From Antrihabitans auranticaus (GTDB lineage: Bacteria; Actinomycetota; Actinomycetes; Mycobacteriales; Mycobacteriaceae): DNA of 64,000 nt. Numbering within the stretch: the first letter of the stretch is position 1; each line of letters begins with the position of its first letter. A program made the translations under genes and the position numbers. Below, piece after piece: positions 31,487 to 50,914 of this stretch. The stretch lies in assembly GCF_016481275.1 (NCBI RefSeq), contig NZ_JAEMNW010000007.1, forward strand, positions 186,001 to 250,000, in the 5' to 3' direction. The notes under the pieces were generated by a model. That model did no database searches, was not told where the DNA came from, and saw only the letters and a list, made by a program, of their open reading frames with translations.

Positions 31487-32116
31487 CTAGGTGCCCGTGT
31501 GCGGGGCGGATGCCACCAGTCCGTTCAAGCCGTCCTGCAACGCCGCCGCGCCTTGCGTCAGGAGGTCGGGTAGGGACAGTCCATCGTCGGAGAGCCACTG
31601 CTCGTAGGCGGCCACCGCCACTCCGAGGAGCAGCCAGCCGGCAGTGCGCGGACCGTGATCGGTCGGCTTGCTGCCGGTTCGCCGGGCGACGTACTCGGCG
31701 ACAACCGTCCGCCATCCGCCGTACATCACCATCGAATAGCCCTGGAGCGCGGGAACCGTGAGAATCAGCTCCATCCGCTTGCGGTGGGTGGCCGCCTGGT
31801 CCGCCGGGAAGGTGTTGAACTCGAGCAGCGCCGTGGTGAGTCCTTCGGCGAGCGGAATCGAGGACGGTAGCTCGGCCAACTGTGTGCGCATCTCCGCGAG
31901 GTGAACGTCGAAGTCGCCCCAGGGCACGGCGTTCTTCGAGGGGAAGTAGCGAAAGAAGGTGCGGCGCGCGATACCGGCTGCCGCCGCAATGTCGTCGATG
32001 CTCGTGTCGTCGAAGCCGTTGGCCGCGAACAGTTCGATTCCGACCGCGCTGATCTGGTCCTTGGTCGTCGCTGGGCGACGCCCGACGCGGATCGCGGGCT
32101 CCGTGTGAGTCATCAC
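31487..32116 (-). CDS. mftR: Mycofactocin system transcriptional regulator MftR
   Basis: A 209-residue TetR regulator. RVGRRPATTKDQISAVGIELFAANGFDDTSIDDIAAAAGIARRTFFRYFPSKNAVPWGDFD is the characteristic MftR N-terminal domain, with the FFRYFPSKN and PWGDFD signature. In M. smegmatis MftR represses the mft operon and is released by long-chain acyl-CoAs. Here it is divergent from mno rather than adjacent to mftA. The 165-bp gap holds CACCGAACGGTG and the first copy of the 16-bp locus motif. Confidence 0.88.
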   Translation of the reverse strand: MMTHTEPAIRVGRRPATTKDQISAVGIELFAANGFDDTSIDDIAAAAGIARRTFFRYFPSKNAVPWGDFDVHLAEMRTQLAELPSSIPLAEGLTTALLEFNTFPADQAATHRKRMELILTVPALQGYSMVMYGGWRTVVAEYVARRTGSKPTDHGPRTAGWLLLGVAVAAYEQWLSDDGLSLPDLLTQGAAALQDGLNGLVASAPHTGT

Positions 32117-32153: not shown

Positions 32154-32163
32154 GTGGACCGCC

Positions 32164-32179
32164 CTACCCGATCGGACAG
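32164..32179. promoter_or_regulatory. Locus-wide 16-bp palindrome, copy 1 (before mno)
   Basis: CTACCCGATCGGACAG, extended on both sides by matches (CC before, TT after) to the copies at 36152 and 40284. It ends 102 bp before the mno GTG. Such an upstream position suits an activator such as MnoR; MftR is the alternative. Confidence 0.65.
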
Positions 32180-32281
32180 TTCGTGCGCCGCGTCCGGACG
32201 GTTGTGCCTCGAACGTCTTCCCAGTCGGTTCACCGCAACCGAGAGTGAGTTACACCACACCGCTCGAACGAGGAGAACACA

Positions 32282-33553
32282 GTGGCAATAGAACTGAACC
32301 AGATCTGGGACTTTCCGATCAAGGAGTTCCATCCCTTCCCACGCGCTCTGCTCGGCGTGGGCGCACACGACATCATCGGCGTCGAAGCAAAGAACTTGGG
32401 CTTCAAGCGTTCTCTGCTCATGACGACCGGTCTCCGCGGTTCCGGCATCATCGAGGAACTGATCGGCAAGATCGAGTACCAGGGCGTCGAGGTCGTGCTC
32501 TACGACAAGGTCGAGTCGAACCCCAAGGACTACAACGTGATGGAGGCGGCCGCGCTCTATCAGAAAGAGAAGTGCGACAGCGTCATTTCGATCGGCGGAG
32601 GCTCGAGCCACGACGCCGCGAAGGGCGCGCGTGTCGTCATCGCGCACGACGGCCGCAACATCAACGAGTTCGAGGGATTCGCGAAGTCCACGAACAAGGA
32701 GAACCCACCCCACATCGCTGTATCTACCACCGCGGGAACAGGTTCGGAGACGTCGTGGGCCTACGTCATCACCGACACCTCCGATATGGACCACCCGCAC
32801 AAATGGGTGGGCTTCGACGAGGCCACGATCGTCACCGTCGCTATCGACGACCCGCTGCTGTATTACAGCTGCCCGCAACACTTCACGGCATTCTGCGGCT
32901 TCGACGTGCTCGCGCACGGCAGTGAGCCGTACGTGTCCCGGCTGGACTTCGCCCCGTCGCTCGGCAACGCGATCTACTCGATCAAACTTGTCGCCGAGAA
33001 CCTGCGTGAAGCTGTGTACGAGCCGCGGAACCTGAAGGCCCGCGAAGGCATGATGAACGCGCAATACATTGCGGGACAGGCCTTCAACTCCGGTGGGCTC
33101 GGCATCGTCCACTCGATCTCGCACGCCGTCAGCGCGTTCTTCGACAGCCATCACGGTCTCAACAACGCAATTGCGTTGCCGCGCGTCTGGGAATACAACC
33201 TGCCGTCGCGCTACGAGCGCTACGCCGAAATCGCCACGGCGATGGGGGTCGACACGCGAAACATGACGACAGTACAAGCGGCCGACGCGGCGGTGGAAGC
33301 TGCGATCCGACTTGCGAAAGACGTTGGCATTCCGGACAACTTCGGCCAGGTGCGCACCGACTCGTACGCCAAGAACCAGATGAACACCAAGAAGTACGAG
33401 GGTCGCGGCGATGTGATCAAGGGCGACGAGAAGACGGTTCGCTCGATATCCGAACACATCCAGGACGACTGGTGCACGCCGGGTAATCCGCGCGAGGTGA
33501 CCGTCGAGTCGATGATTCCCGTGGTGCACCACGCGATCAACGAATCCTACTGA
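32282..33553 (+). CDS. mno: NDMA-dependent methanol/alcohol dehydrogenase (Mno/ThcE family)
   Basis: A 423-residue iron-containing (type III) alcohol dehydrogenase. It has the NAD-binding SVISIGGGSSHDAAKGA, TTAGTGSETSWAYVITD and the metal-binding His block HSISHAVSAFFDSHHGLNNA. The N-terminus MAIELNQIWDFPIKEFHPFPRALLGVGAHD is characteristic of the nitrosoaniline-dependent methanol oxidoreductases of Amycolatopsis, Rhodococcus (ThcE) and mycobacteria. These keep NAD tightly bound and need mycofactocin as the exchangeable electron acceptor. The GTG start has GAGGAG 8 bp upstream. It heads the mno-moxR-VWA unit. Confidence 0.92.
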   Translation: MAIELNQIWDFPIKEFHPFPRALLGVGAHDIIGVEAKNLGFKRSLLMTTGLRGSGIIEELIGKIEYQGVEVVLYDKVESNPKDYNVMEAAALYQKEKCDSVISIGGGSSHDAAKGARVVIAHDGRNINEFEGFAKSTNKENPPHIAVSTTAGTGSETSWAYVITDTSDMDHPHKWVGFDEATIVTVAIDDPLLYYSCPQHFTAFCGFDVLAHGSEPYVSRLDFAPSLGNAIYSIKLVAENLREAVYEPRNLKAREGMMNAQYIAGQAFNSGGLGIVHSISHAVSAFFDSHHGLNNAIALPRVWEYNLPSRYERYAEIATAMGVDTRNMTTVQAADAAVEAAIRLAKDVGIPDNFGQVRTDSYAKNQMNTKKYEGRGDVIKGDEKTVRSISEHIQDDWCTPGNPREVTVESMIPVVHHAINESY

Positions 33554-33570
33554 GAGAGAAGGGCGACCCA

Positions 33571-34632
33571 GTGCACAGTGTGGCAGTGGTAGAAGCTGAA
33601 ACCAGCAACAGCGCAGGTGTTTTCACCGACGGAAAGGACGTCGCGGCAGCACTGCGGGAGTACGACTACATTGCCGACGACGACCTCGCGACGGTAGTTC
33701 ATCTCGCCACGGCACTGGATCGCCCGCTCTTGCTCGAAGGACCCGCCGGCGTGGGGAAGACCGAACTGGCAAAGGCTTTGGCGAAAGCGTCGAACAGACG
33801 GCTCGTGCGACTGCAGTGCTACGAAGGTCTCGACGACAGCCGCGCGCTCTACGAGTGGGACTACGCCAAACAGCTGCTGCACGTGCAGATGCTGCGCGAC
33901 CGGATCAGCGGTGAGCTGGCAGATTTCGCGACGACGGCGCAGGCAGCAACGCATCTCGCCGCGCAGGACTTCGGGCTGTACTCCGAAGCCTTTCTCGCGG
34001 TGCGACCACTCCTCGACTCGGTGCTGTCTGCCGAACCGGTCGTGTTGCTGGTCGACGAGGTCGATCGCACCGAGGAGTCGATGGAGGCGCTGCTGCTCGA
34101 GGTGCTGGCCGAGCGGCAGGTCACCGTTCCGGAGGTCGGAACGTTCACGGCCCGCACCACACCATGGGTTGTGTTGACCTCCAACGACACCCGGGAACTG
34201 TCCGCCGCGTTGAAACGGCGGTGCTTGCATTTTCATCTAGGGTATCCAAGCCCGACGCGTGAGCGGGAGATTGTCGCCGCTCGCGCTCCGGAGGTCGAGG
34301 ACGGTCTCGTCGGCGGTGTGGTGGCTTTGGCGTCGTCGTTGCGCGAACTTCCGCTACGGAAGGCGCCGTCGATCTCCGAGGTGATCGACGCGGCGCGGGC
34401 GGCCGCTGTCCTGCAGCGAACCGGCTGCGGCGCCGACCAGACGCGCCGGATTCTGCTCACTACGTTGTTGAAATACACGAGCGACCTGGACCTCGCGCTG
34501 GCGGACGCCACGGTGCAACCCGAGGCTGAGCGACAACCACGTGCGACGGTTGCCGCGCGTCCGGCCAACACGACGACGGCGGCCTTCCGCGGTCATGGCG
34601 GCAGGGATCGTGGTGGCATCTCTCGGAAGTAG
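33571..34632 (+). CDS. MoxR-type AAA+ ATPase
   Basis: A 353-residue ATPase. Walker A is LLLEGPAGVGKTELAKALA, Walker B is VVLLVDEVDRTE, and sensor 1 (VVLTSNDTRELSAALKRR) is followed by the arginine finger region. The C-terminal lid is followed by a low-complexity tail. MoxR proteins act as chaperones with VWA partners to mature or activate metalloenzymes. It is 17 bp after mno and overlaps the VWA gene, so it probably matures Mno or the second iron-type dehydrogenase. An AAA/VWA pair also follows mno in M. smegmatis. Confidence 0.88.
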   Translation: MHSVAVVEAETSNSAGVFTDGKDVAAALREYDYIADDDLATVVHLATALDRPLLLEGPAGVGKTELAKALAKASNRRLVRLQCYEGLDDSRALYEWDYAKQLLHVQMLRDRISGELADFATTAQAATHLAAQDFGLYSEAFLAVRPLLDSVLSAEPVVLLVDEVDRTEESMEALLLEVLAERQVTVPEVGTFTARTTPWVVLTSNDTRELSAALKRRCLHFHLGYPSPTREREIVAARAPEVEDGLVGGVVALASSLRELPLRKAPSISEVIDAARAAAVLQRTGCGADQTRRILLTTLLKYTSDLDLALADATVQPEAERQPRATVAARPANTTTAAFRGHGGRDRGGISRK

Positions 34633-36139
34633 TAGCAGCGGTTCGATCGAACGCAGTGTGCTCGACGTCGTCGCCGTCGCGTTCGCGGGCACGCTGCGCA
34701 GGAACGGTCTGGCGTTGTCGCCGGCAGAGACCATCGAGGTTCGGCGGGCGGTGGCGCTGATCGGTGCTGTAGACCGCGATGCCCTGCGCGCCGGGCTGCG
34801 CGCAACCTGCGCCAAGTACGCGCACGAACAGGTGGCGTTCGATCGGGGTTTCGACGAGTTCTTCGGTGCCGCAAGGGTTGTGGGGAAGCGCAGCGAAACG
34901 GCTACGATACGAGCACTCTTCGCCGAAGGCTTGCCGGAAGCGCTGGATCTCGATGGTGATTCGAGTGTTGCGCGATACGCCGAATACAACGAGCGAGCCG
35001 CGGAGGTCGGCGATTACTTCGACACACCGGACGCCGAGAAGGGCTTCAACCCGCATAAGGACGACGACGACATCAGTCTCAGCACCAGTGACGGCAGCCT
35101 GTCGGTCGACACCGATTCCGACACCGGCCGGCGTGGTGTGAGCTACACCGTCGAAGTAGACAGGGCAGGGGCGTCGGAGGTCGGCGAGCTCGCGAACGCG
35201 ACTGCCGGCGCGGTCGCCGGATCGCTGCGCTGGGACGATCCGGCGGGCATCCTCGCCTGGCTCGACGCCTATGACCCGCGGCGAACCTACAGCGACGCAT
35301 CTGACGACGAACTGTTGTCCGAAGCGCAGTTGCACCGGCTGGTGGAGGCGGTCGAAGCCTTCGTCGAAGCGCTTGCCCAAGCCGGTATCGCGCGGCCGAC
35401 GACAGAGCCGACCGAGCCGGCGTCGCAGACCTCGGGCACCCGGACCGATGTCGAGCGGGCCTGTCACGAGGTACTTCGACGAATGCGCGGCGCGCCCCGG
35501 CCGACCGTTCGGGCGCACCGGCGCGGGCGGCTCGATATGCGGGCGACGGCGCGCGCAAGCATGCACACCGACGGCGTGCCGTTTCGGTTGTTGATCCGCA
35601 CACCTCGCCCCGAGCGGGTCCGGCTGCTGATCCTTGCGGACGTGTCGCTCTCGGTGCGTCCGGTCACGGCGTTCACGCTGCGGCTGGCGCAAACCCTGCA
35701 TCGACGGGTCGGTCGCTGCCGGGTGCTTGCGTTCGTGGACCGGCCCGTCGATGTCACCGACATCTTGCTGCGCAGTTCCGGCGACGACGCCCTTGCGGCG
35801 GTGCTCGCCTGTCCCGAACTCGACCTGCAGGCTTCGAGCGACTACGGAAAAGTGTTCTCGGAGTTGGCAGCTGGAAGCAACGACGTCAACAACCGGACCT
35901 CCGTTCTGATCGTCGGCGACGGTCGGAGCAACGGATTGGACGCACACGCGGACCAGCTCGCTTCGCTGCGCCGCCGCGTGCACCGGCTCGCGTGGGTGAC
36001 GCCCGAACCGCCCCGCTACTGGCCGCAGGCATCGTGCGCGATGCCCGAGTATGCGCCGCTGTGCGACGGCGTCGTGGTCGCCCGCGATCCCGCCGAACTG
36101 GTCGCCCGCGCGCGCGACCTGGGGAACGCGCTGCGGTAA
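34595..36139 (+). CDS. VWA domain (CoxE-like) protein, MoxR partner
   Basis: A 514-residue protein. The N-terminal 280 residues are helical and acidic (DKDDDDISLSTSDGSLSVDTDSD-like stretch near residues 150-170). Residues ~315-505 form a CoxE-type von Willebrand A domain with LILADVSLSVRPVTAFTLRLAQ, where DVSLS replaces DxSxS, and TSVLIVGDGRSN. Together with MoxR it is expected to form a chaperone for a metallo-dehydrogenase. ATG 34595 overlaps moxR by 38 bp; the exact start is uncertain. It ends 12 bp before the second copy of the locus motif. Confidence 0.78.
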   Translation: MAAGIVVASLGSSSSGSIERSVLDVVAVAFAGTLRRNGLALSPAETIEVRRAVALIGAVDRDALRAGLRATCAKYAHEQVAFDRGFDEFFGAARVVGKRSETATIRALFAEGLPEALDLDGDSSVARYAEYNERAAEVGDYFDTPDAEKGFNPHKDDDDISLSTSDGSLSVDTDSDTGRRGVSYTVEVDRAGASEVGELANATAGAVAGSLRWDDPAGILAWLDAYDPRRTYSDASDDELLSEAQLHRLVEAVEAFVEALAQAGIARPTTEPTEPASQTSGTRTDVERACHEVLRRMRGAPRPTVRAHRRGRLDMRATARASMHTDGVPFRLLIRTPRPERVRLLILADVSLSVRPVTAFTLRLAQTLHRRVGRCRVLAFVDRPVDVTDILLRSSGDDALAAVLACPELDLQASSDYGKVFSELAAGSNDVNNRTSVLIVGDGRSNGLDAHADQLASLRRRVHRLAWVTPEPPRYWPQASCAMPEYAPLCDGVVVARDPAELVARARDLGNALR

Positions 36140-36151
36140 GCACACGGGTAC

Positions 36152-36167
36152 CTACCCGATCGGGCAG
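36152..36167. promoter_or_regulatory. Locus-wide 16-bp palindrome, copy 2 (before second dehydrogenase)
   Basis: CTACCCGATCGGGCAG contains the perfect 10-bp palindrome CCCGATCGGG and differs from copy 1 at one base. It lies in the 87-bp gap after the VWA gene and ends 59 bp before the dehydrogenase GTG. TACGGT at 36215-36220 is a possible -10, which would make the transcript nearly leaderless. Confidence 0.65.
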
Positions 36168-36226
36168 GTTGCGGGCCTGTCCTTCGGTGGGTGCGCCACA
36201 GCGGACCTGCGACGTACGGTAAGAAG

Positions 36227-37429
36227 GTGCCGATTCCAGCGCCCGCGCTGATAGATCACCCGTACAACGGCCGCGATGTCCCGCGGACGGTCAAGTTCCA
36301 TGCTCCCGAAATCGTCTTCGGCATCGGGTCGATGCAAGAGGCGGCGCATGCGGCACTGCGACTCGGTGCCGCGCGACCGCTGTTGGTGACCGACAGCGGG
36401 CTGATCGACGCAGGTTGGGTCGCGGAGTTGCTCGGCTACCTCCGTGATCGCGGTCTGGATGCGACGGTCTGGAGCGGCCTGACCCCGAATCCGAAGGAAC
36501 ACGAAATCGCGGCGGGCCACGAGGTCTACCGCGATCACGGGTGCGATGTGCTCATTGCGCTGGGTGGCGGGTCGGTCATCGATGCGGCGAAGGGCGTCGC
36601 GGTTCTTGCTGCCAACGGCGGCAACATCCTGGACTACGAGGGTGTCGACCGAGCGACCAAACCGATTCCGCCGCTCGTGATGGTTCCGTCTACGTCGGGT
36701 ACCGGCGCGGATGTGTCGCAGTTCTGCATCGTCACCGACACCGCCCGTGGCACCAAGATCACCATTCTCGGCAGGTCTCTCGTCCCGGACGTCACCGTGA
36801 TCGATCCACGTTTGCTGACCACGATGCCGGACTGGTTGAACGCCGCGACCGGACTCGACGCGCTGACACACGGCATCGAGGCGTACGTGTCGCTTGCACA
36901 CAATCCGCTCACCGACCCACATGCCCTGCGGGCGGTCGGCATGGTGACACAGACGCTGGCGTCGACAATCGACGATCCGGTGAACATGACTTTCCGCAGC
37001 ATCATGGCGCAGGCCGCGTTGGAAGCGGGCCTGGCTTTCACGAACGCGATTCTCGGTGCGGCCCATGCAATGAGCCACCAGGTCGGCGGCCTGCTCGACC
37101 TCCCGCACGGCGTGATCAACGGCATCCTGCTGCCGCACGTGATTCGGTTCAACGCCGACGCGGATCCGCGGCCGTACGTCGCGATCGCGGCGAGCATCGG
37201 TCTCGACGAACATCGTGGCAGTGCGGCGGAGGCTGCACTTGCCGTTGCGGATCGAGTCGAGACTCTGGCTCGTGCGGTCGGAGTTCCGCGCACCCTGTCG
37301 GAAATCGGTGTGCGCGAAGCGGATCTGAGCAAGCTCGCACAATTCGCATTGCGTGACGCGTGTATGGCGACGAATCCGCGATCTGCGACTCACGCCGAGA
37401 TGATCGAGTTGTTCCGGACCGCGCTGTGA
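36227..37429 (+). CDS. Iron-containing alcohol dehydrogenase (1,3-propanediol dehydrogenase-like)
   Basis: A 400-residue type III dehydrogenase with VLIALGGGSVIDAAKGVA, MVPSTSGTGADVSQFCIV and metal-ligand helices LDALTHGIEAYVS and HAMSHQVGGLLDLPHGVING. It is about 25 residues shorter than Mno and has the typical butanol/propanediol dehydrogenase layout, so it is a second enzyme rather than a duplicate. GTG 36227 was preferred over GTG 36191 because the later start leaves the motif at 36152 and a -10-like TACGGT in non-coding DNA. An equivalent gene accompanies mno and mnoSR in M. smegmatis. It overlaps mnoS by 4 bp. Confidence 0.82.
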   Translation: MPIPAPALIDHPYNGRDVPRTVKFHAPEIVFGIGSMQEAAHAALRLGAARPLLVTDSGLIDAGWVAELLGYLRDRGLDATVWSGLTPNPKEHEIAAGHEVYRDHGCDVLIALGGGSVIDAAKGVAVLAANGGNILDYEGVDRATKPIPPLVMVPSTSGTGADVSQFCIVTDTARGTKITILGRSLVPDVTVIDPRLLTTMPDWLNAATGLDALTHGIEAYVSLAHNPLTDPHALRAVGMVTQTLASTIDDPVNMTFRSIMAQAALEAGLAFTNAILGAAHAMSHQVGGLLDLPHGVINGILLPHVIRFNADADPRPYVAIAASIGLDEHRGSAAEAALAVADRVETLARAVGVPRTLSEIGVREADLSKLAQFALRDACMATNPRSATHAEMIELFRTAL

Positions 37430-38760
37430 GCCACGAACGGTCGTCCGAACCGAGTCTGCCGGATTTGTCTGTCCTGACCGGGCTGCGATCGAGCAAGAGC
37501 ACCTTCTACCCGCAATATCGCGGCGCTGCCGAACGGTTGGAGCGTGTTGTCCATGCGCTGGAACTGATTTCGCGCGCATTGGTGCGAACGGTGGAAGGTC
37601 CCGAGACGCTGGTGTGCGCGGTGGCGGAAGCAGCACGGGCGCATTTGAGCGCGCGGTGGGTGGCGTTCGCTTTGACCGACGGTGCGCTGCCCGATGCCGG
37701 TATGCGACGCCTCGTCCTGGGACCCGACGGGACGCCGTTCCTCGTCGACGAACTCGAAGGCCCGCCGCTGCCGGACATGGTGCTCGAGTGCCTCGACGAC
37801 ATCAGGCTCTCCGGTGCGCGGTCGGAGCGACCGATCCTGCGCCCGCACTACGCGTTCGTACCGCTCGTGCTCGACGGCGGTGTGGTCGGCGCGATCGCGT
37901 GCTGGTCGCCCGAGGACCGGTTGCTCGATGCGACGGATGGGTCGGTGCTGAGCATTCTCGCCAGTCAAACTGCTGTGGCGCTGCAGAATTCGGCGCTATA
38001 CCAACGAAGCACGACGGCGTACACGCAGCTGCGCCGTACCGCTGCCGACCTCGCGGTCCGCAACGCCGAACTGCAATCGACCCAGAAGCAACTCGGTGCG
38101 GCCTACCGCCAGCAGGTGCTCGACGACGAGCGACACCGCATTGCGCGGGAGTTGCACGACAGCGTCACGCAGGCGGTGTTGTCGGCAGGTATGCAGATAG
38201 AGGTGTGCCGCCGCGATATTCCGGACGCGGAACGAACCGAAAGACTGGATCTCGCAAAGGAAATGACGCGTCGTGCCGTCGAGCAGTTGCGGTCGGCGAT
38301 CTACGCGCTCAACAACGCGGAGGATTCGGCGCGGGAAACGTTGCCCGGCATGCTCGATCAGCTGAGCATCGTGCACATGCCGGACGAGCTGAAGGTCGAT
38401 TTGCACATCGAAGGGCCGCCGGCGGAACTTGCGCCGGACATCGAGCACGCGCTGTTGCGGATTGCGGGTGAGGCACTGTTCAACACGGCGGTCCACGCGC
38501 ATGCGACGTGCGCGGAGTTGCGGCTGGTGTACGGCGGCGATTCGGTGACGCTGTCGGTTGCCGACGATGGCGACGGCGAGCCGGCTCGATTGCGGTCGAT
38601 GCTCCGCGCTGCCGAAAGCGCCGATGTCGATGGTCATCACCGCGGTTTGGTCAACATGGCCACCCGTTGCCGCGAACTCGGCGGCGACTTTTCGGTCCGC
38701 AAGTCCCGTCTAGGCGGTGTGCGAGTGGCCGCTACCATCCCGACGAAAGAAATCTCATGA
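37426..38760 (+). CDS. mnoS: GAF-domain sensor histidine kinase MnoS
   Basis: A 444-residue soluble sensor kinase. Residues ~40-200 form a GAF domain (VAFALTDG...VPLVLDGGVVGAIACW...ILASQTAVALQN). A coiled coil follows, then the HisKA_3 box DDERHRIARELHDSVTQAVL with phosphorylated His244. The HATPase domain has LRIAGEALFNTAVHAHA and SVADDGDGE. No membrane segment is seen, so it senses a cytoplasmic cue, plausibly an alcohol or diol. The GTG start overlaps the dehydrogenase stop by 4 bp, and the regulator gene overlaps its stop (ATGA). This order matches the mnoSR system of M. smegmatis. Confidence 0.82.
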   Translation: MSHERSSEPSLPDLSVLTGLRSSKSTFYPQYRGAAERLERVVHALELISRALVRTVEGPETLVCAVAEAARAHLSARWVAFALTDGALPDAGMRRLVLGPDGTPFLVDELEGPPLPDMVLECLDDIRLSGARSERPILRPHYAFVPLVLDGGVVGAIACWSPEDRLLDATDGSVLSILASQTAVALQNSALYQRSTTAYTQLRRTAADLAVRNAELQSTQKQLGAAYRQQVLDDERHRIARELHDSVTQAVLSAGMQIEVCRRDIPDAERTERLDLAKEMTRRAVEQLRSAIYALNNAEDSARETLPGMLDQLSIVHMPDELKVDLHIEGPPAELAPDIEHALLRIAGEALFNTAVHAHATCAELRLVYGGDSVTLSVADDGDGEPARLRSMLRAAESADVDGHHRGLVNMATRCRELGGDFSVRKSRLGGVRVAATIPTKEIS

Positions 38761-39410
38761 CCCAGACCCGACAGTCGACAGTGCGCATCCTCCTCGTCGA
38801 CGACCACGCGATTCTGCGAGAAGGTCTGCGGTCGGTCCTGGATCGAGAAACCGACCTCCGAGTCGTCGGCGAGGCGAGCAGTCGCGAGGAAGCTCAGACC
38901 GTCGCAGCGCGCTTGGCGCCGGACGTCGTCGTCATCGATCTCAAGCTGTCGGCGGGATCGGACTACGAGGGACTTGCGTTGTGCAAGGCGCTGGCGAAAT
39001 CGCATCCCCAGATGGGCCTGCTGGTGCTGACGACTTTCCTCGATGAACGCCTGGTCGTGGAGGCCGTCCATTCGGGCGCGCGCGGCTATGTGGTCAAGGA
39101 CGTCGACACGACCGAGCTGGTTCGCGCGATTCGGGCGGTGTCGCGCGGTGAGAGCGCGTTCGATTCCCGGACCGCGTCGGCTGTGGTCAGGTCCATCAAC
39201 GGCGCCGGTTCACGGCCCGAGCAACTGACCGATCGCGAAGTCGAAGTCCTGGGCTTCCTTGCAAAGGGTCTGTCCAACAGCGGAATCGGTGAGAAGTTGT
39301 TCATCTCGCCGACGACGGTCAAGTTTCATGTCAGCAACATCATGCGCAAGCTCGACGTCGCCCGCCGCGCGGAGGCGGTCTATGCGGCGAGCAAGCTGGG
39401 GCTGATCTGA
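38757..39410 (+). CDS. mnoR: NarL/LuxR-type response regulator MnoR
   Basis: A 217-residue response regulator. The receiver domain has the acidic pair Asp15-Asp16 and the phosphoacceptor Asp61 in VVVIDLKLS, a Thr in VLTTFLDER and Lys in GYVVKDVD. The C-terminal LuxR helix-turn-helix (~155-210) reads LTDREVEVLGFLAKGLSNSGIGEKLFISPTTVKFHVSNIMRKL. It is coupled to mnoS. The three 16-bp palindromes before mno, the second dehydrogenase and mftA are natural candidates for its binding sites. Confidence 0.83.
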   Translation: MTQTRQSTVRILLVDDHAILREGLRSVLDRETDLRVVGEASSREEAQTVAARLAPDVVVIDLKLSAGSDYEGLALCKALAKSHPQMGLLVLTTFLDERLVVEAVHSGARGYVVKDVDTTELVRAIRAVSRGESAFDSRTASAVVRSINGAGSRPEQLTDREVEVLGFLAKGLSNSGIGEKLFISPTTVKFHVSNIMRKLDVARRAEAVYAASKLGLI

Positions 39411-39419
39411 GCGACCGCG

Positions 39420-40226
39420 TCAAAGGTCGAGCACCAACCATCCGCCGTGGTATTCGGTGACCGCGAAGCGGCACCCGACGGTGTCGCCCATCGCGCGCAA
39501 GGCTTCGACATCGAACGTCCGGACGTGGCCATGGCAGGCGGTCGGCGTGGTCTCGAACGGCACCGCCACGACAACGCGTCGGCGCGCGACACGCACCGCC
39601 TCGGCAAGAATCAACGCGCCAGTCGCGGTATCTACGTGCTCGAGCAAATGGATCGCGGTGACCGTGTCGGCGTGGTTGTCCGGCAGCGGTACCGACGCTG
39701 CATCGCACGCCAAAGTGTCTAGACTGCAATCCAATTCCGGAGCGACCCGCGCGAGCAACCGCATCGTCGACGCGCAGATATCGGTCGCCGTCACGGTCAG
39801 CCCCGTACGGGCCAAACGAATCGCAAAGAATCCGAAGCACGATCCGAGATCGACAACGCTCGCGCCGGCGACGAGCTGTTCGGCCCGCTCGTGTACCGGG
39901 CTGAAGGCAGCAGCTCCGGAAAGTAAGTCCTGCAGCGAATTCCGGTAGAACTCGGCCCACGCGCACACTGGATCGTCGACGGTGGACCTGATCAACCCGA
40001 CCATGACCGCCTCGAAGTCCGACCTCTGTTCCAACGCGAGCTCGTCGGCGACTCGAATCGCCAGGCCGTCCGACAGGTCGCCGGGCCGCAGCGCGTGCCG
40101 CACGGTCAGGCGCCGCCGTCCGCGCGTTGCGGTGATCGTCCGTGACCGGACGCCGCCGAGTCGAACTACCTCTACGTGGTCGCCGTGCCACCGTCCTGGT
40201 GGGCTCGGCGCGATCGGATCGAGCAT
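39420..40226 (-). CDS. mftM: SAM-dependent methyltransferase, probable MftM (mycofactocin oligosaccharide)
   Basis: A 268-residue class I methyltransferase. Motif I is VVDLGSCFGFFAIRLA, followed by TVTATDIC and AIHLLEHVDTATGALILAEAVRVARRRVVVAVP. It has an N-terminal extension of about 120 residues. It lies between mnoR and mftA, convergent with mnoR (9 bp) and divergent from mftA. Mycofactocins in mycobacteria carry a 2-O-methyl group on the glucose chain added by MftM, and both the family and position fit that role here. The name rests partly on context. An alternative is an unrelated small-molecule methyltransferase. Confidence 0.65.
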   Translation of the reverse strand: MLDPIAPSPPGRWHGDHVEVVRLGGVRSRTITATRGRRRLTVRHALRPGDLSDGLAIRVADELALEQRSDFEAVMVGLIRSTVDDPVCAWAEFYRNSLQDLLSGAAAFSPVHERAEQLVAGASVVDLGSCFGFFAIRLARTGLTVTATDICASTMRLLARVAPELDCSLDTLACDAASVPLPDNHADTVTAIHLLEHVDTATGALILAEAVRVARRRVVVAVPFETTPTACHGHVRTFDVEALRAMGDTVGCRFAVTEYHGGWLVLDL

Positions 40227-40283
40227 GTTTCGACGGTATGCGCGAAGTCCCGAAACCGGACCCGGCGGTGGCAGGGGCGTGAC

Positions 40284-40299
40284 CTGCCCGTTCGGACAG
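40284..40299. promoter_or_regulatory. Locus-wide 16-bp palindrome, copy 3 (before mftA)
   Basis: CTGCCCGTTCGGACAG differs from copy 1 at two bases, with the same CC before and TT after. It ends 103 bp before the mftA ATG, almost the same distance as copy 1 from mno (102 bp). A -10-like TATTAA is at 40359-40364, placing the motif well upstream of the start point. It also lies upstream of the divergent methyltransferase gene. Confidence 0.65.
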
Positions 40300-40402
40300 T
40301 TTTACGACCCACCCCTAGCGCGGACGCTGCCGATGTGCCATTCTGCACTCGATGCCAATATTAAGTGAAGCGCATCACACCGACCCCCGGAAGGAGCATC
40401 CG

Positions 40403-40495
40403 ATGTCCGAGCCCCTAGAGGTAACCGAAGAAGAACTCGTCACCGAGACCCTCGTCGAAGAGGTCTCGATCGACGGCATGTGCGGCGTCTACTGA
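40403..40495 (+). CDS. mftA: Mycofactocin precursor peptide MftA
   Basis: A 30-residue ribosomal precursor beginning [17 protein letters not shown], acidic, and ending in the invariant IDGMCGVY. Val29 and Tyr30 are the residues that MftC decarboxylates and crosslinks to form the core of the cofactor. The leader is bound by MftB. GGAAGGAG lies 6 bp before the ATG. It is the first gene of the mftABCD-SDR-EFG operon and is preceded by copy 3 of the locus palindrome. Confidence 0.96.
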
Positions 40496-40511
40496 GCTTC
40501 TGGAGCCGATG

Positions 40512-40793
40512 ATGTCTGCACTCGATCTCGACACGGCCTGGCGGTTGCACCCGAAGGTCGCGCTGCGCCCCGAACCCTTCGGTGCGCTGTTGTATCACTT
40601 CGGAACGCGCAAATTGTCGTTCCTCAAGAACACGACGATCGTCGAGATCGTGCAGGCATTGCCCAATCATGCCGATGCGCGCTCGGCCATCCGCTCAGCC
40701 GGAGTGCCGGACGCCGCGTTACCGACCTACGCGGATGCGCTTGGCACGCTGGCTGATTCACACATGATCGTTCACGCCGAGGAGGCATTGTGA
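40512..40793 (+). CDS. mftB: Mycofactocin chaperone MftB (RiPP recognition element)
   Basis: A 93-residue PqqD-like RRE protein (LDTAWRLHPKVALRPEPFGALLYHFGTRKLSFLKN, then a helical C-terminal part). It binds the MftA leader and presents it to MftC. ATG 40512 is preferred to the adjacent ATG 40509 because GGAG lies 6 bp upstream. It lies 16 bp after mftA and overlaps mftC by 4 bp (GTGA). Confidence 0.93.
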   Translation: MSALDLDTAWRLHPKVALRPEPFGALLYHFGTRKLSFLKNTTIVEIVQALPNHADARSAIRSAGVPDAALPTYADALGTLADSHMIVHAEEAL

Positions 40794-41995
40794 CATCCAC
40801 ACTCGTTCGGCCGGCGCGGCTGGTCGATCAGTTCGAACTCGGGCTCGACGCGCCGATCTGCCTGACGTGGGAGTTGACCTACGCCTGCAACCTCTCGTGT
40901 GTGCACTGTCTCTCGTCGTCTGGCCGCCGCGACCCTCGCGAACTGTCCACCGAGCAGTGCAAGGCCGTCATCGACGAACTGCAGAAGATGCAGGTCTTCT
41001 ACGTCAACATCGGCGGCGGCGAACCTACGGTGCGCTCGGATTTCTGGGAGCTCGTCGACTACGCGACGGCCCATCAGGTCGGTGTGAAGTTCTCCACCAA
41101 CGGCGTCCGGCTCGATAAGTCGGCTGCAGCCAGGTTGGCAGACTCCGATTACGTCGACGTCCAGATTTCGCTCGACGGTGCTACCGCGGAGGTCAACGAC
41201 GCTGTCCGCGGACCCGGCTCGTTCGCGATGGCGATCCGCGCGCTGGAGAACCTCGCCGAGGCCGGCTTCAGGGACGCGAAGATCTCCGTGGTCGTGACGC
41301 GGCACAATGTGTCACAGCTCGACGACTTCAAGGCGCTCGCCGACAAGTACGGTGCGACACTGCGTATTACGCGGCTACGCCCGTCCGGTCGCGGCGCCGA
41401 CGTGTGGGACGAACTGCACCCCACCGCCGCGCAGCAGCGCGAACTCTACGACTGGCTGGTGGGCAACGGCGACCGGGTGTTGACCGGCGACTCGTTCTTT
41501 CACCTGTCCGCCTACGGCAACGCGCTGCCCGGTTTGAACCTCTGCGGAGCCGGCCGGGTCGTCTGCCTGATAGATCCCGTCGGTGACGTGTACGCGTGCC
41601 CGTTCGCGATCCACGAACAGTTCCTGGCCGGGAATGTGCTGTCGGACGGCGGCTTTGCGCACGTATGGCAGCACTCGGACCTCTTCACCGAACTGCGGTC
41701 CCCGCAGACCGGCGGCGCGTGCACGAAATGCAACCATTTCGACTCCTGCCGGGGCGGCTGCATGGCGGCCAAGTTCTTCACCGGTCTGCCGATGGATGGG
41801 CCCGACCCTGAATGCGTGCTCGGTAACGGGGAGTCGGCGCTGAACGCGGCCGGCGAGATCCCCAAATCGAGCGTGGACCACTCCCGGACCGGCGAGCGCA
41901 AGGTCGCGCGCAAATCGGTTCCACTGACCCTGATGATGCGACCACCGGCAAAGATCTGTGACGAAAACCCGCTCACGGGAATGACTAAGGAATAA
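40790..41995 (+). CDS. mftC: Mycofactocin radical SAM maturase MftC
   Basis: A 401-residue radical SAM enzyme. The SAM-cluster motif CNLSCVHC has Cys33, Cys37 and Cys40. VNIGGGEPTVR is the GGE motif. The SPASM domain has LCGAGRVVCLIDPVGDVYACPF and CTKCNHFDSCRGGC for auxiliary 4Fe-4S clusters. MftC oxidatively decarboxylates the C-terminal Tyr of MftA and forms the Val-Tyr carbon crosslink. The GTG start overlaps mftB. Confidence 0.95.
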   Translation: MTSTLVRPARLVDQFELGLDAPICLTWELTYACNLSCVHCLSSSGRRDPRELSTEQCKAVIDELQKMQVFYVNIGGGEPTVRSDFWELVDYATAHQVGVKFSTNGVRLDKSAAARLADSDYVDVQISLDGATAEVNDAVRGPGSFAMAIRALENLAEAGFRDAKISVVVTRHNVSQLDDFKALADKYGATLRITRLRPSGRGADVWDELHPTAAQQRELYDWLVGNGDRVLTGDSFFHLSAYGNALPGLNLCGAGRVVCLIDPVGDVYACPFAIHEQFLAGNVLSDGGFAHVWQHSDLFTELRSPQTGGACTKCNHFDSCRGGCMAAKFFTGLPMDGPDPECVLGNGESALNAAGEIPKSSVDHSRTGERKVARKSVPLTLMMRPPAKICDENPLTGMTKE

Positions 41996-47605: not shown

Positions 47606-49234
47606 ATGGACCTCAGCATTCCGAGCTATGCAAACGGGCTCTCCGACACGCCCCTTCTCGGCGACACGATCGGCGACAACTTCGATCGCACGGTCGCAGC
47701 ATTCCCGGACCGCGATGCGCTCGTCGACCGGCCGACCGGTCGCCGCTGGACCTACCGCGAACTCGCTGCCGAAGTCGACGCGCTCGCACTCGGATTCCTC
47801 GGTGCCGGAATCGGAAAGGGCGACCGCGTGGGTATCTGGTCGCCGAACTGTGCGGAGTGGGTCTTCGTCCAATACGCGACCGCGAAGATCGGCGCGATCC
47901 TCGTCAACATCAATCCGGCCTACCGCTCGCACGAGTTGGAGTACGTGCTCAACCAGGCCGGCATCAAGCTGCTGGTGTCGGCCGCTGCATTCAAGACGTC
48001 GAACTACGTTGACATGATCGAGCAGATCCGGCCGAAGTGCGCAGACCTGAGTAACGTCGTGGTGCTCGGTACCGACGATTGGACCGCACTGCACGACTCG
48101 GGCCGGGGCGGCGACGCGGGTAAGCTTGCCGTCGCCCAGGCGGAACTGTCGACCGACGACGCGATCAACATTCAATATACCTCCGGCACAACGGGATTCC
48201 CGAAGGGCGCGACGCTCTCGCACCACAACATCCTGAACAACGGCTTCTTCGTCGGCGAACTGTGCAGCTATACCGAGAACGATCGCGTGTGTATTCCGGT
48301 GCCGTTCTACCACTGCTTCGGGATGGTCATGGGCAACCTTGCGTGCACGTCGCACGGCGCGGCGATGGTGATCCCGGCGCCGTCGTTCGAGCCGAAAGCG
48401 ACGCTCGAAGCGGTCGCGGCCGAGCGGTGCACCTCGCTGTACGGAGTGCCGACGATGTTCATCGGGGAACTCGCCGAACCGGATTTCGAGTCCTACGACC
48501 TGTCGAGCCTCCGCACCGGAATCATGGCGGGTTCGCCGTGCCCCGTGGAGGTGATGAAGCAGGTCATCGAGCGGATGGGCATGGCTGAGGTGTCGATCTG
48601 CTACGGCATGACCGAGACCTCGCCGGTTTCCACGCAGACCCGCGCCAACGACACGATCGACCAGCGGACCGCGACCGTCGGCCGGGTCGGACCGCATCTC
48701 GAAGTCAAGATCGTCGATCCCGCAACGGGTTTGACGGTGCCGCGCGGTGAACCCGGTGAGGTGTGCACGCGCGGGTACTCGGTGATGCTCGGCTACTGGA
48801 ACAACGCCGAAAAGACCGCCGAGGCGATCGACGCAGCCCGGTGGATGCACACCGGTGACATCGGCGTGATGGATTCCGACGACTATGTGGCTATCACCGG
48901 CCGCATCAAAGACATGGTGATCAGGGGCGGCGAGAACGTCTATCCGCGTGAGATCGAGGAGTTTCTCTACACGCATCCGGACGTCCTCGACGCGCAGGTG
49001 ATCGGGGTGCCGGACGCGAAGTACGGCGAGGAACTGATGGCCTGGATCCGGATGCGGGAAGGTGCGGAACCGCTGGATGCCGAGCGGGTCAAGGACTTCT
49101 GCACGGGAAAGCTTGCGCACTACAAGATTCCGCGGTACGTCCACATCGTCGACGAGTTCCCCATGACCATCACCGGCAAGATCCGCAAGGTCGAGATGCG
49201 CGAGAAGTCGCTCGCGCTGATCGACAACGCGTGA
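47606..49234 (+). CDS. AMP-binding acyl-CoA synthetase (FadD-type)
   Basis: A 542-residue adenylate-forming enzyme. P-loop-like [27 protein letters not shown], the hinge [30 protein letters not shown] and the C-terminal Lys in [11 protein letters not shown] are all intact. It makes acyl-CoA from a fatty acid, ATP and CoA; the chain length cannot be read from sequence. It begins 48 bp after mftG on the same strand. MftR in M. smegmatis responds to long-chain acyl-CoA, so a product of this enzyme could feed back on the locus. Confidence 0.88.
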
Positions 49235-49249
49235 GTTAGCGGGCGCGTC

Positions 49250-50914
49250 ATGTCCGGACAGCAGCCCCTGCGACCGGAGATCGCGCTGTCCTGGCAGCGG
49301 TCGATGCAGAACGGCGTCGATCCCGGCAGTCCGGTCGCGACCGATCCTGTTCCCGAACTCGACAGGGCAGATCGGCTGTTGCGGGCCGCGCAACCGGTGC
49401 TCGACGAAGTCGCCGAGCAGATCGCCGGGACCGGCTTCTGCGTATTGCTCGTCGACCGCGATTGCCGAACGGTGGCAAGGCTGTTCGACGGCAATGCGGT
49501 CGAGCGGCACATGGAACGGATCGGTGCTGTCCTCGGCGCGCGGTTCGGCGAGGACGAAGTCGGTACTACCGCCCTCGGCACGCCGTTGGAAGTGGGCAAG
49601 GCGATCGTTGTGAACGGTGCCGAGCACTTTCTCGAGCGGTTCAAGGATCTCAGTTGCTACGGGCACCCGATCGTGCATCCGGTGACCCGTCGTGTCGAGG
49701 GCATTCTCGATATGACAGGTATTGCGTCGCAAGCAAATCCACTCTTCGCGCCGTTCCTTGCGCGCGCGGCGAAAGACATCGAACGGCGGATACTCGAGGG
49801 CTCGCGGATTTCGCAGCAGCGGCTCGTCGATGCCTTCCAGCGAGTCCTGCCACAGCGCAACCTCGCCGTCGCCGCGATCAGCGAGGACATGCTGCTGAGC
49901 AACCGCGTCGCGCACGATCTGCTGGACGCTACCGATCATGCCGCGCTCAGAGATCTCGCGGCAGACCTCCGGTCCGACCAGTCGCGAACGGTCGACCTGC
50001 TGCTCGCGTCGGGGGAGCCTGCGCACGTTCGAATCGACCGGGTGGCGGGAGCCGAAGGTGGCGCGCTGTTCCAGGTGCTGGCCACGGACCGCACACGGAC
50101 CCCGATCGCACGAAAGGCCGATGTGTCGCGACCGGTTGGGGACCGGATCGCTGTCGCGCTGCGGGCGTTGCGCGATTCGCGCGAGCCGGTCGCGATCAGC
50201 GGCGAGCCTGGGACCGGCCGCACGGCAGCGGTCCGCGATCTTGCCGGTGCCGAACCATTACGGACCGTCGACGCGATCGGGATTGCACTGCACGGCGTCG
50301 ACGAATGGGTCCGCGCGTTGTGCGAACTCGTCCGTGACGATCGGGGCGTGCTCGCGATCGAAAACGTGCAACTCGTCGCCGAGTCGACACTGCCGTTGCT
50401 GACCGAGCTGGTGTCGTCGCCGGCGGGTCCGCGAATAGTGTTGACCAGCAATGCGATCGACGACCTGCCGATCGCGACCGCCGCTCTTGTGGGACGTTGT
50501 CCCGGACGTGTGCAACTCCCCGCGCTGCGCCAGCGCACCGGTGAACTCGCCGAGATCGTGCAGAACATGCTCGACGGCATCGAACCCGGTGTCCGGCTCA
50601 CACCCAGCGCACTCGAAGCGCTCGTCGCCGCCGAATGGCCGGGCAACCTGAGTGAGCTCGCAGTGGTCCTGCGTACCGCGTTCGCCGCGAGATCGAGCAA
50701 TCGAATCGACGTGACCGACCTGCCCGAGGCCTACCGAACCTCTGCACGGGTCCGGCGGCTGGCGGGCAGGGAGCGCGCCGAGCGGCAGGCGATCGCCGAT
50801 GCACTGCACGAATGCGGCGGTAACAAGGTCCATGCGGCGGCCAAACTCGGCATCAGCCGCAGCACCCTCTACACGCGGATGCGTGCTCTGGATGTCCGGA
50901 ACTTGAACAGTTAG
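49250..50914 (+). CDS. GAF-AAA-Fis transcriptional regulator lacking the GAFTGA loop
   Basis: A 554-residue AcoR/MimR-like regulator. It has an N-terminal GAF domain (~55-190), a central degenerate AAA domain with SGEPGTGRTAAVRDL as Walker A and LAIENVQLV replacing Walker B, and a C-terminal Fis helix-turn-helix (RQAIADALHECGGNKVHAAAKLGISRSTLYTRM). The sigma-54 contact loop GAFTGA is absent, fitting a phylum that lacks sigma-54. Such proteins activate alcohol, acetoin and alkane genes in actinobacteria. It precedes aldehyde and alcohol dehydrogenase genes, its likely targets. Confidence 0.82.
   Translation: MSGQQPLRPEIALSWQRSMQNGVDPGSPVATDPVPELDRADRLLRAAQPVLDEVAEQIAGTGFCVLLVDRDCRTVARLFDGNAVERHMERIGAVLGARFGEDEVGTTALGTPLEVGKAIVVNGAEHFLERFKDLSCYGHPIVHPVTRRVEGILDMTGIASQANPLFAPFLARAAKDIERRILEGSRISQQRLVDAFQRVLPQRNLAVAAISEDMLLSNRVAHDLLDATDHAALRDLAADLRSDQSRTVDLLLASGEPAHVRIDRVAGAEGGALFQVLATDRTRTPIARKADVSRPVGDRIAVALRALRDSREPVAISGEPGTGRTAAVRDLAGAEPLRTVDAIGIALHGVDEWVRALCELVRDDRGVLAIENVQLVAESTLPLLTELVSSPAGPRIVLTSNAIDDLPIATAALVGRCPGRVQLPALRQRTGELAEIVQNMLDGIEPGVRLTPSALEALVAAEWPGNLSELAVVLRTAFAARSSNRIDVTDLPEAYRTSARVRRLAGRERAERQAIADALHECGGNKVHAAAKLGISRSTLYTRMRALDVRNLNS

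Follow-up and report, generated by a model that had tools for sequence, protein, structure and literature searches.

Candidate MnoR operators at the alcohol dehydrogenase and mycofactocin promoters of Antrihabitans auranticaus and their conservation in relatives

The locus and its three palindromic sites

The window analysed here is a stretch of 64,000 nucleotides from Antrihabitans auranticaus (contig NZ_JAEMNW010000007.1, positions 186,001 to 250,000). It contains the genes of a methanol dehydrogenase, a second dehydrogenase, a two-component system and the biosynthesis of the cofactor mycofactocin, in the order mftR (reverse strand), mno, madB, madC, adh2, mnoS, mnoR, mftM (reverse strand), mftA, mftB, mftC, mftD, an SDR gene and mftF. 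Three similar 16-bp sequences at 32164, 36152 and 40284 are the subject of this study; they are candidate operators for the response regulator MnoR, a member of the MadR family. An earlier note, made from the sequence alone, had pointed them out at exactly these positions.

All three sites are intergenic, situated between mftR and mno (divergent), madC and adh2, and mftM and mftA (divergent). The copies differ pairwise at one, two and three positions, and copies 1 and 3 stand 102 and 103 bp from the start codons of mno and mftA, so that the earlier description is correct on these points. Box 2 lies 59 bp upstream of the likely GTG start of adh2, while box 3 is closer to mftM than to mftA. The flanks were said to be CC and TT in every copy; this applies to copy 1, but copy 2 has AC and GT and copy 3 has AC and TT. 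The copies were also called palindromes, and although the dyad symmetry is real, the 16-mers are imperfect palindromes; what is conserved is a dyad of 20 bp whose ends read ACC...GGT, here called the box (Table 1).

The genome was searched by pattern, and matrix scoring was applied to the window. Exact matches to CTRCCCGWTCGGRCAG in the 6.5 Mb genome are limited to the three copies, all within 8.1 kb; in its exact form the motif is confined to this locus, as had been proposed. With a symmetric matrix no site in the window other than the boxes exceeds 10 bits, the next-best score being 9.1 bits; the core sequence that had been noticed inside the DUF445 gene is indeed found there, starting at 2189-2190, but scores -8.5 bits. 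At up to three mismatches the window holds 14 matches where 5.93 are expected, and none of 100 shuffles got to 14. Words with up to two mismatches are common genome-wide (52, compared to 37 for a reversed control), and in GC-rich DNA three matches could in principle be a product of chance. However, all exact matches fall between genes inside 8.1 kb and are found again at the corresponding promoters of relatives, and a chance origin, rejected on this rarity and recurrence, is hardly credible. Five of the seven listed one-mismatch sites in the genome (L004-L008) were inspected; they score 8.6-17.1 bits and lie inside open frames of 248-690 codons, and are therefore probably coding.

Table 1. Features of the A. 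auranticaus locus (positions in the window; scores in bits)
Feature	Position	Strand	Remarks
MnoR box 1 (candidate, 20-bp dyad)	32162..32181		between mftR and mno; 16-mer at 32164-32179; 26.2
MnoR box 2 (candidate)	36150..36169		5' of adh2-mnoS-mnoR; 16-mer at 36152; 33.6; 11-bp arms, 91% complementary
MnoR box 3 (candidate)	40282..40301		between divergent mftM and mftA; 16-mer at 40284; 26.4
Weaker second half-site CGGACGGTT, 3' of box 1	32195..32203	+	right-half element at +22, conserved in 44 aligned mno promoters
Weaker second element, 3' of box 2	36176..36192	+	left-half element at +24, conserved in 46 aligned adh2 promoters; here offset by about 1 base
MftR operator O_mft (predicted)	40336..40362	+	39.9; similar to the operator footprinted in M. 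smegmatis (PMC8728441, available part)
mftR, TetR-type repressor	31487..32113	-	TIGR03968 282.5, cut-off 224.9
mno, NDMA-dependent methanol dehydrogenase	32282..33553	+	TIGR04266 961, cut-off 625
madB (AAA ATPase) and madC (VWA protein)	33571..36139	+	NF047784 512.2 and NF047783 729.8, both above cut-off
adh2, second iron-type dehydrogenase	36227..37429	+	Fe-ADH Pfam domains; start codon picked by eye
mnoS (MadS), sensor kinase	37426..38760	+	NF047786 620.3, cut-off 500
mnoR (MadR), response regulator, presumed box reader	38757..39410	+	NF047785 350.8, cut-off 300; receiver and GerE/LuxR domains
mftM, mycofactocin oligosaccharide methyltransferase	39420..40226	-	NF041255 349.6, cut-off 200
mftA, mycofactocin precursor	40403..40495	+	TIGR03969 49.9, cut-off 25
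mftB and mftC	40509..41995	+	TIGR03967 110.2, TIGR03962 663.8

The mnoR gene, situated between boxes 2 and 3, encodes the sole above-cut-off match to NF047785 (MadR) in the genome. The methyltransferase encoded beside mftA is MftM, and box 3 is therefore located between two divergent cofactor units. The best NCBIfam model for adh2 is ErcA, with 468.5 bits, which is under its cut-off of 550. In the window mftR adjoins mno, 9 kb from mftA, while in many relatives it is found between mftM and mftA. Since box 1 lies 48 bp before the mftR start codon, MnoR might act on the repressor gene too. Behind mftF, at 47606-50914, an acyl-CoA ligase-like gene is found together with a regulator-like gene whose product has a C-terminus resembling activators of the DhaR/NtrC type.

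Conservation of the dyad and its co-occurrence with MadR

The best 80 of the MnoR/MadR loci listed were retrieved together with flanking DNA of up to 10 kb per side; they belong to Rhodococcus, Rhodococcoides, Mycolicibacterium, Mycobacterium, Williamsia, Antrihabitans, Tsukamurella and Tomitella. De novo motif discovery in non-redundant 250-bp upstream regions, performed separately for each promoter class, gave the same dyad every time: ACCTACCCGATCGGGTAGGT at adh2 (n = 67), ACCTGCCCGATCGGGCAGTT at mno (n = 45) and CCTACCCGATCGGACGGTTT at mftA (n = 35). The symmetric box matrix was trained on the adh2 and mno sites only. In the 80 loci a box of at least 10 bits is present at 69 of the 80 adh2 and 58 of the 59 mno promoters, both of which are training sets, and at 47 of the 50 mftA promoters, which were kept outside the training (0 of 500 shuffles). 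It is also found upstream of mftM in 28 of 68 cases, and in just one of the 80 mnoS upstream regions. The earlier note had suggested such a scan before mno and mftA and named a lack of conservation as evidence against its idea; what was found is that the dyad recurs at the adh2, mno and mftA promoters. In distant relatives that belong to a different family of the class (L183-L185) the boxes are weak, with 10.9-17.4 bits. Four loci (L062, L084, L085, and L186) display paired weak boxes about 20 bp apart upstream of mftA.

The choice between MnoR and MftR as the reader of the dyad was addressed in 201 genomes of the family, evenly drawn from a larger group. MadR is encoded in 84 of these (83 above the curated cut-off), MftC in 158, and MftR in 153. 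The strict 20-mer ACCTRYCCGWWCGGRYAGKT occurs in 53 of the 84 genomes with MadR and in none of the 117 without it (Fisher p = 6e-27 without correction for kinship), and its reversed control pattern has no match in the 201 genomes. The strict dyad is absent from all 74 genomes that have MftR but lack MadR, while two of the five with MadR but without MftR contain it.

TetR regulators bind palindromes, and box 1 adjoins mftR; the box between the divergent mftR and mno could thus have been an operator for autoregulation by MftR. However, according to the available part of PMC8728441, the footprinted MftR operator is another palindrome, T-N2-GGCA-N5-TGCC-N2-A. As judged from the O_mft matrix, which was trained on mftA promoters from genomes without MadR, the three dyads do not match this pattern; the predicted O_mft is a separate site and the only strong match in the window (the next best scores 6.2 bits, and none is found at the dyads). 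It is also O_mft, and not the dyad, that tracks mftR, being present in 74 of the 76 retrieved promoters whose genome encodes MftR and in none of the four whose genome does not. Of 52 named loci where mft and madR are linked (see below), 37 combine O_mft with an mftR gene in the locus, 13 have neither, and two have O_mft only. MftR was rejected as the reader of the dyad on the basis of its different operator, the separate O_mft site and the MftR-only genomes, and the autoregulation model is very improbable. The comparisons support the view that the dyad goes with MadR/MnoR, as the earlier note preferred, and that MftR has its own operator at mftA.

In some MadR genomes strong dyads (27-33 bits) are found far from madR, in several cases at the same place (L190-L193, L189/L194, and L197/L198). 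Such a dyad follows an aminotransferase-like frame in four genomes (G134, G165, G122, and G097). These sites possibly mark additional regulon members. A plasmid record from Tsukamurella, 416 kb in length (NZ_LR134451.1:37246-43504), contains mno-madBC-adh2-kinase genes like those of the window (52% query cover, 76% identity), and the locus may therefore move on plasmids; otherwise the plasmid search added little.

The mftA promoter: linkage, loss and duplicated clusters

The mft genes are here called linked when they lie within 10 kb of madR; 28 linked loci where no mftA was found were left out. At linked mftA promoters a box of at least 10 bits occurs in 52 of 56 rows, corresponding to 51 of 54 distinct loci, since L169 and L170 repeat L059 and L071. 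When MadR is present but mft is not linked, the fraction is 11 of 36; in this group mft is distant, on another contig or in a second cluster. The group includes genomes whose contig ends may conceal linkage, and two of the clusters are 12.6 and 16 kb from madR (G136 and G139). Among 41 promoters from genomes without MadR, picked from the mft genomes listed, the box is absent in 37, while O_mft is mostly kept. As the distant mft genes of MadR genomes mostly lack the box, the link to the cofactor follows gene neighbourhood as well as the regulator. The proposal of one switch for both cofactor and enzymes thus holds where mft lies beside mnoR and is not general.

Several genomes without MadR (L114, L129, L128, and L172) retain an eroded dyad at the same distance from an intact O_mft; this appeared when they were set beside linked loci with a similar promoter, such as L037, L049, and L016. 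In genomes with two mft clusters the box is found only at the copy on the madR side: 25.0 bits in Williamsia serinedens (G062, L078; none at L144), 30.0 bits in W. maris (G119, L067; none at L152), and 27.1 bits in Antrihabitans stalagmiti (G042, L170; none at L168). O_mft is present only at the other copy in the two Williamsia genomes and at both copies in A. stalagmiti. In G024, G050, and G067 a strict dyad is located about 0.6 kb upstream of mftC near madR, and the other copy (L173-L175) has no box.

These promoters also bear on whether box 3 could be an MnoR site that serves mftM alone, leaving mftA under MftR only. Besides the position of box 3 nearer to mftM, six Mycolicibacterium-type loci (L053, L055-L058, and L075) and an M. 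smegmatis-like genome (G268) have a box before mftM and no adjacent mft cluster, the neighbourhood having been read for L056. On the other hand, in many linked Rhodococcus loci the box stays with mftA, at about 63 bp from O_mft, although mftR separates mftM from mftA; the linked mftA copies of the two Williamsia genomes even have the box without O_mft. A role confined to mftM is accordingly unlikely.

In 41 non-redundant promoters with both box and O_mft the spacing is 41-42 bp (6), 52-54 bp (6), 62-65 bp (28) or 28 bp (1). A period test peaks near 11.5 and not near 10.5, and the spacing clusters follow genera and therefore represent few independent events. Helical phasing between the two sites is suggestive and was not relied on.

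Comparison with known systems and the proposed regulation

In Mycobacterium smegmatis, where MnoS is known to phosphorylate MnoR, the MnoSR system and the site upstream of mno were reportedly described by Dubey and Jain in 2019. The available part of PMC11303327 states that MnoR binds a sequence from the mno promoter with a Kd of 2.37 uM as determined by thermophoresis. The Kd was 11.7 with two mismatches, binding was not seen with four, and gel shifts were ambiguous. MnoSR was needed for mno and MSMEG_6239, and controls both positively. The window system, likened to this one by regulator family, genes and position and not letter by letter, shares the combination of mno with a second dehydrogenase, a palindromic site upstream of mno and, as predicted, positive control. 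The two differ in that the published site is reported once per genome, at mno, while the window has three boxes, one of them at mftM/mftA. The words mft and mycofactocin are absent from the main text of PMC11303327 in its available part, and among the open-licence papers listed none dealt with mft genes under the control of MnoR. The MftR/O_mft system likewise has its site at the window mftA, but with a different palindrome and regulator, and it leaves the three dyads unexplained.

Binding sites of the NarL type have a 7-2-7 arrangement. The dyad resembles these in that the regulator is of the GerE/LuxR kind, in its two 7-bp arms and 2-bp centre, and in the weaker elements nearby. The letters are different, and for MnoR the 7-2-7 geometry is read from sequence alone.

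The M. smegmatis-like genome G268, the sole carrier of the exact M. smegmatis O_mft 27-mer among 297 in a genus search, has boxes at mno (19.8 bits), adh2 (34.7 bits, a perfect palindrome) and mftM (20.5 bits), and none at mftA.

Several observations weigh against MnoR as a common regulator acting through the box. The published MnoR sequence is reported to have a single occurrence in M. smegmatis, 137 bp upstream of mno (PMC11303327, available part), and in G268 the end of a hairpin coincides exactly with this position, -137, while the mno box starts at -133. This hairpin is unconserved in ten other Mycolicibacterium-type mno promoters, where the box is kept. Eleven of the 80 adh2 promoters lack a 10-bit box, and the strict 20-mer is missing from 31 of the 84 MadR genomes. 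Four of the 41 mftA promoters from genomes without MadR retain the box, with 20.0 bits in L123 and 11.8-12.6 bits in L099, L110, and L122. Conversely, no mftA box is found at the non-adjacent mft genes of MadR genomes in g4 (0/4) and g30 (0/6), and among 80 promoters fetched genome-wise, three of them linked, MadR predicts the mftA box only modestly (13/39 vs. 4/41, p = 0.014). Even the congener A. stalactiti (G015, L059/L169) has MadR and no mftA box; it has boxes at adh2 and, weaker, at mno, and is devoid of mftR and O_mft.

When all this is considered, it is highly probable that the three palindromes are MnoR/MadR operators for coactivation of mno-madB-madC, adh2-mnoS-mnoR and the mftM/mftA cofactor units. 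MnoR binding and activation in A. auranticaus, the operon limits and the signal are what we infer. An alcohol-related signal would cause MnoS to phosphorylate MnoR, and a MnoR dimer would then bind the dyad, contacting two 7-bp arms around 2 bp within the 20-bp consensus upstream of each promoter. Boxes 1 and 2, each with its weaker second element, would drive mno-madB-madC and adh2-mnoS-mnoR. The latter would represent positive autoregulation, and since mnoS generally has no box of its own, box 2 would amplify the regulator too. Box 3 would drive mftM in one direction and mftA onward in the other, and at mftA the input from MnoR would be combined with that of the separate MftR repressor site, which lies downstream of box 3 at a distance of about 63 bp.

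MnoR control of the enzymes is already known; what is new is its proposed extension to the cofactor genes, next to a second operator, together with the lineage pattern. In the two Williamsia genomes the mno-side copy has the MnoR box only and the other copy O_mft only, and one cofactor would therefore be made by two separately controlled gene sets. Whether mycofactocin synthesis is a two-input node, where MnoR reports alcohol and MftR acyl-CoA through neighbouring operators with preserved spacing, and where the inputs are divided between duplicated mft clusters, seems to us evenly balanced.

Mycofactocin has its role in alcohol oxidation and shows a response to ethanol (PMC7491314, available part), while repression by its described regulator MftR is relieved by long-chain acyl-CoA (PMC8728441, available part). 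If the proposed model is true, the MnoR operator at mftM/mftA would provide bacteria of the Rhodococcus type with a simple route by which alcohol governs cofactor supply. The model would also predict which lineages have this route and which do not, an example of the latter being the M. smegmatis-like G268, whose mftA has no box.

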